NCBI RefSeq assembly: GCF_001423245.1
Contig: NZ_LMOH01000028.1
Coordinates: 124,001 to 188,000, forward strand
Origin: Aureimonas sp. Leaf324
Lineage (GTDB): Bacteria; Pseudomonadota; Alphaproteobacteria; Rhizobiales; Rhizobiaceae
Length of the DNA stretch: 64,000 nucleotides
Direction: 5' to 3'
The translations under genes and the position numbers were made by a program. Under the pieces are notes generated by a model. The model had not been told where the DNA came from. It did no database searches and was given only the letters and a program-made list of their open reading frames with translations. Within the stretch, counting starts at the first letter, position 1. The number at the start of each line of letters is the position of its first letter. Below are positions 153-24,781 of the stretch, piece after piece.

Positions 153-1736
153 ATGGCCGACCGCATCCTGCGTCCCCTGGCCCACCTCGCGCTGGCCGTC
201 ATCGCCGTGGGCCTTCCCGAAGCGGCGCTGGCCGCCTCGAACGACGCGATCATCTCCGTCAGCCGCCTGAACCAGACGATCCCCCTCGGGCTCAACAAGT
301 CCAAGGTCGTGGACCTGCCGCGCGACGCGCATGACATCGTGGTGGCCGATCCGTCCGTCGCCGATGCGGTCACGCGTACCGCGCGCCGCATCTACCTCTT
401 CGGCAAGGCGGTCGGTCAGACCAACATCTTCGTCTTCGACGCCGCAGGCCGCGAGATCGCGGTCCTCGATCTCAAGATCGAGCGCGACATCGATGGGCTT
501 GCCGCCACCATCCGCCGCTTCATCCCGACCGCCGACGTCAAGGCGGAGATGCTGAACGACAACGTCATCCTGACCGGGACGGTGGAGAACGCGCAGGACG
601 CCGCCCGTGCGGTGGACCTTGCGACCATCTTCACGCGGGGCGGCGAGGCGACCACGGGTCAGTTCGTCCAGACGACGACGGCCGGCGGGAGCACGGGTGC
701 CGGTGGCGCCGCCTTCGGCGCGGTCTCGCAGATCAATCCGACCATCCAGCGCAGCCAGATCGTCAACCTTCTCCAGATCCAGGGCGAGGACCAGGTCACG
801 CTGAAGGTGACCGTCGCCGAGGTCCAGCGCTCGGTCGTCAAGCAGCTCGGCATTGATGGGATCGGCGTCGCATCGTCCGATGGCATCGCGTTCGCGGCGG
901 CCAGTTCCAACCCGTTCGGCCTCGGCAAGGCGATCTCTTCGGCCGGAGCCGACCTCTTCAACGGTGGCAACAGCGACAACGGTATCTCCGCGCAGCTGCG
1001 CGCCATGGAGCAGGCCGGCGTGATGCGCACGCTCGCCGAACCGAGCCTGACCGCGATCTCCGGCGAGAGCGCCTCGTTCAAGGTCGGCGGTGAATTCTCC
1101 GTCGCCAGCGGCAAGTCGGAAAAGGCTCCAAGACGCACGCCCATCCTCGGGCAGAACGGCGCGATCATCGGTTTCGACAACGAACCCGGATCGGTGGACT
1201 ACGAACACAAGGAAATCGACTACGGCATCGGCCTCGACTTCACGCCGGTGGTTCTGTCGCCGGGACGCATCAGCCTGAAGATTCGCACGGCCGTGTCGGA
1301 GCCGACGTTCGAGTCGCCCTACGCCATTCCGGGTGGCCTTGCGCCGGGCGTCAATCTCGTCGGAATCCGCAAGCGCCTCGCCGACACCACGGTCGAGCTT
1401 CCGTCCGGCGGCTCGATGGTGATCGCTGGTCTCGTGCGCGACGAGATGCGCCAAGTCATTTCCGGCTATCCCGGCCTGTCCAAGATCCCGATCCTCGGCA
1501 CCCTGTTCCGCTCGCGCGACTTCCAGCGCTACGAGACCGAGCTCGTCGTGATCGTCACGCCCTACCTCGTGCGGCCCGTCGCGCGGCAGGATCTCGCCCG
1601 GCCCGACGACAATCTCGCCTTCACCTCGGATGGCTCCGGCAATCTCCTCGGCCGGATCAACCGCGTCTACGGCCAGTCCGAAACCGCCCTTCCGTCCGGC
1701 CGCTACCACGGCACTGTTGGATACATCTACAAATGA
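153..1736 (+). CDS. cpaC: CpaC, secretin of the Tad/Cpa pilus
   Basis: 527 aa. Residues 1 to about 27 form a Sec signal peptide (LALAVIAVGLPEAALAA). An N-terminal pilus/BON-like region (about 30-165) precedes the secretin domain (about 215-475), which contains the segments ISGESASFKVGGEF and ELVVIVTPYLVRP. Proteins of this family form the outer-membrane ring through which Flp pili exit. The ATG at 153 follows GGGGAA and comes two bases after the cpaB stop. The stop overlaps the cpaD start as ATGA, so translation is probably coupled. Length fits the family. Confidence 0.95.
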   Translation: MADRILRPLAHLALAVIAVGLPEAALAASNDAIISVSRLNQTIPLGLNKSKVVDLPRDAHDIVVADPSVADAVTRTARRIYLFGKAVGQTNIFVFDAAGREIAVLDLKIERDIDGLAATIRRFIPTADVKAEMLNDNVILTGTVENAQDAARAVDLATIFTRGGEATTGQFVQTTTAGGSTGAGGAAFGAVSQINPTIQRSQIVNLLQIQGEDQVTLKVTVAEVQRSVVKQLGIDGIGVASSDGIAFAAASSNPFGLGKAISSAGADLFNGGNSDNGISAQLRAMEQAGVMRTLAEPSLTAISGESASFKVGGEFSVASGKSEKAPRRTPILGQNGAIIGFDNEPGSVDYEHKEIDYGIGLDFTPVVLSPGRISLKIRTAVSEPTFESPYAIPGGLAPGVNLVGIRKRLADTTVELPSGGSMVIAGLVRDEMRQVISGYPGLSKIPILGTLFRSRDFQRYETELVVIVTPYLVRPVARQDLARPDDNLAFTSDGSGNLLGRINRVYGQSETALPSGRYHGTVGYIYK

Positions 1737-2440
1737 GCGCGCTCGCGAATGCCCCCGCCGCCCGCCGCTTCGCCACGGCCGGCCTGATCCTGGCGACCCT
1801 TGCCTTCGCCGGCTGCGCCGAAAGGCCGGACGCCTCGCTGAACTTCGTCCCCGACGACTACCGGGCGCGGCATCCGATCATCGTCGGCGATGCGACGCAG
1901 AACCTCGACATCCTGCCCTCCGCGGCCGACACGCGCCTGACCCACGCCGACCTGACCCGCGTGCAGAGCTTTGCCAACCGCTTCCGGGCGTCGCGCGCCG
2001 CCGCGATCAGCGTCCAGGTCCCGGTGCGCACGCGCAACGCCGCGGCCGCCTCGCTGGTCGCAAGGGACATGCTGCGCGCCCTCCATCGCGAGGGCGTGCC
2101 GCGTTCGCGCATCGTGTTCTCGTCCTACGAGGTCGCGGGCGGCGACGAGGCCTATCCGATCCGGCTGTCCTACACCGGCCTTTCCGCGGGCCTCGACCAC
2201 CCGTGCGGCCAGTGGCCGTCCGACCTCGGCGACACCTATCAGAACCGCAACTACGAGAACTTCGGCTGCGCCTCGCAGGCCAACCTCGCCGCGCAGATCT
2301 CGGACCCGCGCGATCTTCTCGGGCCCCGCGGCATGAGCGAGATCGATGCCGAACGCCGCACCACGGTGATCGGCGACTATCGACAGGGTCGGTCGACGGC
2401 CTCCGAGCGCAGCAATACCGAATCGAACTACAGCTGGTAG
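1733..2440 (+). CDS. cpaD: CpaD, pilus biogenesis lipoprotein
   Basis: 235 aa. A hydrophobic leader ends in the lipobox LAFAGC, so the mature protein is predicted to be a lipoprotein beginning at that cysteine. The body (LNFVPDDYRARHPIIVGD, then a central region with CASQANLAAQISDPRDLLGPR) matches the CpaD family, which supports secretin assembly or localisation at the outer membrane. The start overlaps cpaC by 4 bases, and cpaE follows 14 bases later in the same operon. The Cys in CASQANLA and the acidic-glycine stretch are characteristic of the family. Confidence 0.93.
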   Translation: MSALANAPAARRFATAGLILATLAFAGCAERPDASLNFVPDDYRARHPIIVGDATQNLDILPSAADTRLTHADLTRVQSFANRFRASRAAAISVQVPVRTRNAAAASLVARDMLRALHREGVPRSRIVFSSYEVAGGDEAYPIRLSYTGLSAGLDHPCGQWPSDLGDTYQNRNYENFGCASQANLAAQISDPRDLLGPRGMSEIDAERRTTVIGDYRQGRSTASERSNTESNYSW

Positions 2441-21749: not shown

Positions 21750-22760
21750 TTACTGGGCCGGCGCCGGCGCAGGAGCGGCGTTGTCGGCCGGGGCGGGCGC
21801 GGCCGGGGCAGGGGCCGCAGGAGTCGGGGATGCCGGCGCTGCGGGGGCCGGTTCAGCCGGTGCAGCCGCGGGCGCGGCCGGTGCCGTGGCGGGAGGCGTC
21901 GAAGGCGCCGGGTTCTCCTGCGGGGCCTGCGTGCCGGGCTGCGAAGGCGCGGCCTGGCCGGACTCGGTCGGCGGCACAGGCGCGCCGGCGGGGCGGTTCT
22001 CGGCGTTGGTGCCGGTGGCCGGGACCGTGCCGGACGCCGGCGCGGTCGGCGCGCCGCCGGTGGTCTGGTCGGTGGTGCCGGCGCCCTGGGGCTGCGTCAC
22101 CGCGTCGTTCGGCAGGGCGTTGGCGTTGGTCGTGGCGTTCGGCGCGGTCTCGGCCGGAGCCGCAGCTCCTTCCGCGGGCGCTTCGCCGCCGGCCGGCGCG
22201 CCGGCGTCCGGCGCGGGCGGGGCCGGCGGGTTGTCCGACAGCGTGCCGAGATAGGCGAGGAGGTCGGCGCGCTCCTGGTCCTTCGGGATGCCGGCGAAGC
22301 CCATCGCCGTGCCCTTGATGTACTGCTTCGGGCCATGCAGGAAATGGTTCAGGTGATCCCAGTCCCAGACCACGCTCTTGCCCTGCGAGAACTCGGTCAT
22401 CGCGGCCGAGTAGCTGAACCCCTCGTGCGAGGCGATCGGGCGGTTCACGACATCCCACAGGTCGGGGCCGACCTTGTTGGGTCCGCCCTTCTCGCCGGAA
22501 TGGCAGGCCTGGCAGCGCTTGAAGATCGCCGCGCCCGCCTCGGCATTGGCGGTCTGCATCAGCTGGCCGACCGGCGTCACCTCGTTGGCGGCGGGCGCGG
22601 CGCCCCCGCCGGCGGGGGCATCGGGCACGGCGATCGCGAAGCCGGGCTGCTCGGGCGCCTCGGCATGGAAGATGCCTTCGGCCAGAAGGCTGCCGCCGAA
22701 CAGAACGAACACGGTGCCAAGGAGGGCACCGAAGATCTTGTTGGCCTCAAACGAATTCAT
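21750..22760 (-). CDS. Membrane-anchored cytochrome c with long Ala/Pro-rich C-terminal tail
   Basis: 336 aa from ATG 22760, preceded by GAGGGAG. An uncleaved N-terminal membrane anchor ([20 protein letters not shown]) is followed by a class I cytochrome c domain with the heme site CQACH and the axial Met region [26 protein letters not shown]. This is the CycM-type protein of Hyphomicrobiales, which carries electrons to terminal oxidases. From about residue 170 the protein becomes a tail of about 165 residues made almost only of Ala, Pro, Gly, Thr and Glu. That tail is much longer than the roughly 175-200 aa usual for the family. Divergent from kdsB-pheA. Confidence 0.9.
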
Positions 22761-22972
22761 GATAAAGGGCGGCTCCCTCTGCAGCCGGCGCAAGGGGCCG
22801 ACGACACGCGCTTTCGATCGTCCACGGGCACAAAGCGCGATCCGCCGGTTCCCGGCGGCCTGGCTCGGGCCCGTCAATTGGAAGCGTTCTGACATTCCGA
22901 TCGGAATCGATCAAGCGCCCTCCTGTCACAGCTTCGCCTAAATTTCCTGCGGCCGCACCAGAGTCCCGACCC

Positions 22973-24571
22973 ATGTCCACCCTGATCCTGATCCCGTCCC
23001 GGCTGGCCTCGACCCGGCTTCCCATGAAGCCGCTGGCCGACATCGGCGGACGTCCGATGATCGTGCGCGTGGCCGAGCGGGCCCGCGATGCCGGTATCGG
23101 CCGCGTCGTGGTGGCGTGCGACGACGCGGCGATTCGCGATGCGGTCACGGCTGCGGGTTTCGAGGCGGTGATGACGGGCTCGCACCACCAGTCCGGCTCC
23201 GACCGCATCTTCGAGGCGCTGGAGATCATCGATCCCGCAGGCGAGATCGACACGATCATCAACCTCCAGGGCGACCTGCCGACGATCGAGCCGGAAACGA
23301 TCCGGGCCGTGCTGCGGCCCTTCGCCGATCCCGCCTGCGAGATCGCGACCGTTGCCGTCGAGATCGAGAACCCCGCCGACCGGGCCGACCCGAGCGTCGT
23401 CAAGCTGATCGGCACGCCGGTCGCCGAGAATCGGCTGAACGCGCTCTACTTCACGCGCGCGACCGCGCCGACGGGCGACGGGCCGCTCTATCACCATGTC
23501 GGCATCTACGCCTATCGCCGCACGGCGCTCGCCCGCTTCGTGGCGCTGCCGCCGTCGCCGCTGGAGACGCGCGAGAAGCTGGAGCAACTGCGCGCGCTGG
23601 AGGCCGGCATGCGCATCGACGCCGAGATCGTCGACGCCGCACCGCTCGGCGTCGACATGCCCCACCAACTGGAGGAGGCGCGCCGCTTCTACGAGCCGGC
23701 GACGCGATCGAACCGCATCTCGTTCCAGGGCGAGCCCGGCGCCAACTCCGACACTGCCTGCCGGACGATGTATCCCGATCTCGAGCCGCTGCCGTGCCCG
23801 ACCTTCGAGGATGCGCTCGCGGCCGTCACGCGCGGCGAGGCGGATCTCGCGATGATCCCGATCGAGAACACGATCGCCGGCCGCGTCGCCGACATCCACC
23901 ATCTCCTGCCGGTGTCGGGCCTTCAGATCGTCGGCGAGTTCTTCCTTCCGATCCGCTTCCAGCTGATGGCCAAGCCCGGCACGGGCCTTGCCGACATCCG
24001 CGAGGTGCACAGCCACATCCACGCGCTCGGCCAGTGCCGCGGGATCCTCCGGCGCAACGGCTGGAAGCCGGTCATCTCGGGCGATACGGCGGGCGCGGCG
24101 CGCATCATCTCGCAGATGGCGGAGCGCTCCGTCGCGGCGCTGGCGCCCCGGCTGGCCGCCGAGCTCTACGGCCTCGACATCCTCGCCGAGAACGTCGAGG
24201 ACGCCGAGCACAACACGACGCGTTTCGTGGTCCTGTCGCGGCCGGGCCGCGGCGAGGACCTCTGGGCGCCGCGGTCCGGCGAGATGGTCGTCACCACCTT
24301 CGTCTTCGAGGTGCGCAACCTGCCGGCTGCGCTCTACAAGGCGCTCGGCGGCTTCGCCACCAACGGCATCAACATGACGAAGCTCGAAAGCTACCAGCTG
24401 GAAGGCAAGTTCGTGGCGACGCAGTTCTTCGCCGATATCGAGGGGCACCCGAACGACCCCGGCGTCGCGCGGGCGCTCGACGAATTGCGCTTCTTCTCCA
24501 AGCGCGTCTCGATCATGGGCGTCTATCCCGCCTCGCCCGACCGACCGACGCACCCCGGCGCCGCGGAATAG
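22973..24571 (+). CDS. KdsB-PheA fusion: CMP-KDO synthetase plus prephenate dehydratase
   Basis: 532 aa in one uninterrupted frame. Residues 1 to about 243 are KdsB (CMP-3-deoxy-manno-octulosonate synthetase; [49 protein letters not shown]), which activates KDO for lipid A. Residues about 246-532 are PheA ([17 protein letters not shown], catalytic TRF at 416-418, ACT domain about 437-516 with LESYQLEG), which makes phenylpyruvate. In relatives these are neighbouring separate genes of about 250 and 285 aa. Here no stop, and no convincing start for the second half, lies between them. GGAGGAGG at 23671-23678 could be a relic SD, but the only nearby in-frame ATG (23657) precedes it. Domain identities are very certain; the fusion could also reflect a sequencing frameshift. 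Confidence 0.92.
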
Positions 24572-24583
24572 AGCGCCAACGAG

Positions 24584-24612
24584 AAAGGCCCCGCCGGAGC
24601 GGGGCCTTTTTC
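24584..24612 (+). terminator. Rho-independent terminator after kdsB-pheA
   Basis: AAAGGCCCCGC (24584-24594) pairs with GCGGGGCCTTT, with a CGGA-type loop, followed by a T-run reaching 24611. A strong terminator 12 bases after the stop. Being nearly symmetric, it may also stop the convergent DUF1127 transcript. Confidence 0.9.
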
Positions 24613-24634
24613 GTATTCGGTGCGGTGTCTCGGT

Positions 24635-24781
24635 TCAGCGACCGATGCGAACCATGCGCTCGATGTCGCCGCGCATCACGCCGATGTCGCTCAGCATGCG
24701 GTCGTCCATGCTGTTGAGTTCGATGACGGTGCGGCGGTGCGAGCGGAAGGACTGAAAGCGCTTGGCGATGGAGTTGAGCAT
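24635..24781 (-). CDS. DUF1127 small protein
   Basis: 48 aa, starting MLNSIAKRFQSFRSHRR and ending ...IERMVRIGR. It carries the DUF1127 core (ELNSMDDRMLSDIGVMRGD). GAGG lies 5 bases before the ATG. Such Arg-rich mini-proteins are common in alphaproteobacteria; some relatives bind RNA or affect phosphate and carbon metabolism, but this one's role is unknown. It is a single gene downstream of nudC on the same strand. Confidence 0.88.
   Translation of the reverse strand: MLNSIAKRFQSFRSHRRTVIELNSMDDRMLSDIGVMRGDIERMVRIGR

Follow-up and report, generated by a model that had tools for sequence, protein, structure and literature searches.

A single open reading frame in the window (the 64,000-nucleotide stretch of Aureimonas sp. 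Leaf324 DNA analysed here) reads through two enzymes of unrelated pathways, the CMP-KDO synthetase KdsB and the prephenate dehydratase PheA, which raises the question of whether the two are truly fused and, if so, what protein or proteins the gene gives. The frame is open from its ATG to its TAG, with no internal stops, and encodes 532 amino acids with a computed mass of 57,627 Da for the KdsB-PheA fusion. An earlier note on this DNA had described it as one frame holding a full KdsB and then a full PheA, with no stop and no linker between them. The single frame and the missing stop stand, with both halves scoring above the cut-offs of their NCBIfam models; the halves also nearly abut, but a short tether of variable sequence spans residues 239-247, so that 'no linker' is in need of slight amendment. 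The source genome is 4.4 Mb in size and 99.93% complete, the whole fused protein has one match only within it, and the closest named record among the matches listed is Aureimonas phyllosphaerae (98%). The locus is a genuine fusion, common to Aureimonas, that joins two complete enzymes in one frame; its features are collected in Table 1.

Table 1. Features of the fused locus, in window coordinates
Feature	Coordinates	Strand	Description
Fused kdsB-pheA gene	22973..24571	+	532 codons plus stop
KdsB (CMP-KDO synthetase) half	22973..23686	+	Residues 1-238; NF003948, near-invariant positions, fold
In-frame ATG (Met213)	23609..23611	+	GGAGG 5 nt upstream
GGAGGAGG, proposed leftover SD	23671..23678	+	Read as Glu-Glu codons only
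Junction tether	23687..23713	+	Residues 239-247; pN/pS 0.97, lengths, variable sequence
PheA half (prephenate dehydratase plus ACT region)	23714..24544	+	Residues 248-524; NF008866, near-invariant positions, 6vh5
Variable C-terminal tail	24545..24568	+	Residues 525-532; pN/pS 0.85
Hairpin right behind stop	24579..24614	+	3' arm ends in T run

Each half was analyzed for completeness with family models, with fold searches and at near-invariant positions, which we defined from 95 separate KdsBs and PheAs. The KdsB model NF003948 matched residues 1-242 over model positions 4-245 of 248 with 381.5 bits (cut-off 281), Pfam CTP_transf_3 matched residues 5-215, and a fold search with this half returned KdsB structures (E. 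coli 3k8d/3k8e). The PheA model NF008866 matched residues 245-525 over positions 4-280 of 283 with 463.8 bits (cut-off 359), and Pfam PDT matched residues 249-424. Pfam ACT gave no match at E 0.001, and the ACT region aligns along 6vh5, a Brucella prephenate dehydratase in complex with phenylalanine, which is the best PDB match of the PheA half; fold-alignment identity is 70% to this structure and 54% to Komagataeibacter GqqA (7am0). The query keeps 62 of 62 near-invariant positions in KdsB and 66 of 66 in PheA (59 and 65, respectively, are kept across all 21 fused proteins), among the latter K-L-E-S-Y (470-474) and T-R-F (416-418), which we take to be a prephenate dehydratase motif. Both halves are apparently intact, the first as a CMP-KDO synthetase and the second as a prephenate dehydratase. 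The KdsB half is like the LPS-type enzyme of E. coli in its full-length domain, fold and near-invariant residues, but where the separate KdsB of relatives ends at its own stop codon, that of Aureimonas continues into PheA. Likewise, the PheA half shares PDT plus a putative ACT region with the monofunctional alphaproteobacterial enzymes of Brucella and Komagataeibacter, but these use their own start, whereas Aureimonas PheA sits fused behind KdsB. According to a 2021 paper, an E. coli pheA mutant is complemented by GqqA (PMC8192741), while the abstract of a 2016 paper states the opposite (PMC4879726).

The KdsB model scored above its cut-off a single time in the source genome, and likewise a single time in each of 20 of the 21 genus genomes; the source genome also holds a weak CTP-transferase match (27.6 bits) that this model did not pick up. 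The PDT family gave one match in the source genome and one in each of five genus genomes tested. By these searches, the source genome has no second clear copy of either enzyme; it also encodes KdsA, a WaaA-type transferase and chorismate mutase. In two genomes (G015, L100; G007, L101) the PheA half has diverged strongly (branch 1.33, 543 aa protein) and the KdsB half less so (0.36). The idea of a degraded PheA in these two is not supported, as no second PDT was found and the PheA positions kept across all the fused proteins include theirs.

The same fusion was found, without internal stops, in all 21 Aureimonas genomes examined. A contig scan restricted to the best 80 of at least 577 relatives was in accordance with this, with 10 of 10 records named Aureimonas fused, although several of the 21 genomes coincide with these named records. 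At all 70 non-Aureimonas loci of that scan, kdsB ends in a stop and is followed by a later pheA start; because loci were ranked by their match to the fused protein, these favour neighbours in one frame. The family outside Aureimonas (292 genomes) gave three genomes without a match and 56 with one alignment that ran across both halves, none of them free of stops. Since a reported stop can be terminal, all 56 spanning loci were read directly and every one was unfused (25 + 31); for the other 233 genomes the best E-value, judged by score, was sized like one half. Among 289 other genomes of the class, 11 had no match and 23 had spanning alignments, all of which were read and none of which was fused. 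For the rest of the family and class genomes the score alone was used, except for four that were fetched and read, and the loci outside the genus read base by base number 70, 25, 54 and 4 in sets that overlap in part. No fusion outside Aureimonas occurred among the loci read from the family, the class and the contig-scan relatives, which bears out the earlier note's claim that KdsB and PheA are separate neighbouring genes in related genomes. Several candidate exceptions dissolved on reading: a stop-free match at 227-525 outside the genus (G184) proved on fetching to be two genes in different frames, three other candidates (G065, G132, G374) held no fusion, and the internal stops in three genus matches (G005, G008, G010) were terminal, with genes open across both halves.

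To place the origin of the fusion, trees were built for each half with all 21 fused rows and a part of the 95 separate ones (49 for PheA, 50 for KdsB). In each tree a single branch sets the fused rows apart, with support 100/97 for KdsB and 90/78 for PheA; the PheA value falls short of the starred level, and a long branch is among these rows. Because the fused rows share one branch in both trees, a single fusion event is likely. The separate genes are closely spaced, with the pheA start 0-54 nt past the kdsB stop at most separate loci, and the two are also adjacent in Azospirillum and Thalassospira. They also adjoin in Komagataeibacter, judging by the ORFs of a clone described in one paper, which held a KDO cytidylyltransferase ORF, gqqA and a dihydrodipicolinate synthase ORF (PMC4879726). 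The pair is, as judged from gene order, old. Fused and separate loci also have their surroundings in common: in the flanks fetched, all 11 fused loci and 69 of 70 separate ones carry, on the opposite strand, a relative of the window's cytochrome c gene. The protein in the window (21750-22895, minus strand, opposite to the fused gene) has a long Pro/Ala-rich C-terminal stretch.

Selection along the gene was measured as pN/pS pooled over all pairs of the 21 fused genes, and was 0.36 for KdsB, 0.29 for PheA, 0.97 for the tether and 0.85 for the tail, values that indicate purifying selection on both halves and drift of the tether sequence. About 121 substitutions were counted in the tether on a rough tree of the fused genes, from which ∼3.3 stops would be expected, and the absence of stops alone is weak evidence. 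The tether is 9 residues long in 20 of 21 species and 10 in one, though we claim no special selection on its length because, across the 21 fused genes, KdsB lengths are also nearly fixed, as are those of PheA with few exceptions. An AF2 prediction of the monomer shows two well-folded domains (pLDDT 88.2, pTM 0.62) in the order last KdsB helix (230-240), short tether and first PDT strand (248-252), with pLDDT under 50 at residues 529-532. Since the pTM is low, this monomer prediction gives no confident domain-domain pose.

The explanation that we favour, and hold to be very probable on the sequence comparisons, is that the old pair lost the kdsB stop and spacer in frame, giving a bifunctional enzyme made as one polypeptide with its two parts at 1:1. 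In the ancestor of Aureimonas, neighbouring kdsB and pheA would have lost the kdsB stop together with the short spacer and the pheA start. The fused gene would then be translated as one polypeptide of two separately folded enzymes on a short, drifting tether, where the N-terminal half would convert KDO and CTP to CMP-KDO and the C-terminal half would convert prephenate to phenylpyruvate under the control of its own ACT domain. The main consequence would be fixed 1:1 synthesis, probably along with the physical linkage of two enzymes with homodimeric relatives. The relatives of KdsB are homodimers, and GqqA is a dimer according to the accessible text of its 2021 description (PMC8192741). We infer the single product, both activities, the assembly state and the manner in which the stop was lost. 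The benefit of the fusion would most simply be co-synthesis following the in-frame loss of the stop.

It is possible, if unlikely, that the gene instead gives dual products, the full fusion and a free PheA that arises either when translation starts within the kdsB half (at Met213 or codon 223) or when proteolysis cuts the tether, which is unconstrained. The earlier note had proposed that GGAGGAGG is a leftover Shine-Dalgarno (SD) sequence of a once-separate pheA. The run is indeed present, but as a GAG GAG codon pair in the last KdsB helix, and its 8-mer occurs 9 times in the window (6 on the plus strand, 3 on the minus strand). Of the 21 fused genes, 4 have the exact 8-mer and 9 the core AGGAGG, synonymous changes abolish it in the close relatives L082 and L084, and no ATG, GTG or TTG follows at residues 238-255 in 20 of the 21, the exception (L087) having an ATG at 241, inside the tether. 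We therefore rejected it as a leftover SD. Met213 is the best-placed internal start near the junction in the source genome, with GGAGG 5 nt before its ATG, while ATG229 is without an SD match. Across the fused genes an ATG stands at aligned column 213 in 17 of 21 and a start-type codon at 223 in 18 of 21, but no start-type codon at positions 200-262 is common to all 21 (maximum 18), and 94 of 95 separate kdsB genes likewise have ATG213, for which reason we read Met213 as KdsB coding. An SD-like match of at least 5 together with a start at one of these two places (Met213, codon 223) was not significantly commoner in fused genes (8/21) than in separate kdsB genes (24/95; Fisher p 0.28), though this test has little power because few true starts reach such a match: only 12 of 95 starts of separate pheA genes do so, and 0 of 21 fused-gene starts. 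Since SD matches are scarce in this group, the absence of an SD does not exclude a start. As a separate observation, the stretch before the fused-gene start (22951-22972 in the window) is without an SD-like match of at least 5 in 21 of 21 species, and the fused gene possibly starts independently of an SD.

Allosteric coupling, in which phenylalanine at the ACT region, or KDO or CTP at KdsB, would alter the activity of the other half, we consider quite improbable. Both halves are intact and linked, the closest solved PheA (6vh5) is a phenylalanine complex, and the tether hardly varies in length. The last KdsB helix carries Gln232 in 21 of 21 fused proteins and 2 of 95 separate ones, while 19 of 21 fused proteins are changed in PheA at 334 (L to K) and 344 (T to E), all of which would be compatible with such a tie. 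However, the tether sequence drifts freely, the predicted monomer lacks a confident domain-domain pose, and positions that differ consistently between fused and separate proteins are few, with 6 listed in KdsB and 4 in PheA (a one-residue difference at position 430 was left out because the stretch was judged poorly aligned). If true, coupling would tie the building of the outer membrane directly, at the protein level, to the supply of aromatic amino acids, and would be peculiar to Aureimonas. To the notion that an assembly or sequencing artefact removed a stop at the junction we give practically no credence: the identical junction in 21 of 21 genus genomes and 10 of 10 named Aureimonas records refutes an assembly error, the fusion is no sequencing error because all 21 genomes carry it, and the earlier note's concern that relatives might have two genes and this assembly differ by one or two bases falls away with them.

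With a bifunctional enzyme from one fused gene as the preferred reading, the locus can be set beside known cases. Fusions that join enzymes of one pathway are familiar, and E. coli PheA is a bifunctional chorismate mutase-prephenate dehydratase (NF007910), which is like the present protein in joining the dehydratase to another enzyme. Exported chorismate mutase-cyclohexadienyl dehydratase fusions, as described in the accessible part of PMC10520331, also combine a dehydratase with a second enzyme. Unlike these phenylalanine-pathway fusions, which join steps of one pathway, KdsB-PheA joins unrelated pathways. No description of it was found in the open-licence literature searched, including the accessible parts of PMC4879726, PMC2912261 and PMC8192741, which is weak evidence, and the genus-wide fusion is apparently undescribed. 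A fusion of unrelated pathways across a genus, from what are the only clear copies in the source genome, is less expected than one-pathway fusions, and provides a natural test case for whether adjacent genes of an operon fuse through neutral stop loss or because coupling pays. It could also serve as a marker of the genus Aureimonas, and is a caution for annotators, as naming either half may mask the other.

Behind the fused gene, an RNA fold of 24576-24615 gives a 16-pair stem of -31.1 kcal/mol. A consensus terminator scan found no plus-strand site here, only a minus-strand site at 24588-24600; the hairpin is likely a terminator. A small DUF1127 protein is encoded at 24635-24781 on the minus strand, convergent with the fused gene. 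Outside the genus, a record titled Bacillus subtilis SK6B4 (L060) carries a kdsB-pheA nearly identical to that of Pseudochrobactrum, and this assembly is probably mislabelled or contaminated. Within the genus, one genome (G006, apparently A. frigidaquae, L011) has a second, unfused KdsB, the only second one above the cut-off among the 21; it lies at 1501-2241 (minus strand) of L102 494-3209. Its neighbours on the two sides are, by our reading of the ORFs, KpsF/sugar isomerase-like and KdsA-like, which would make this a capsule-type KDO cluster.
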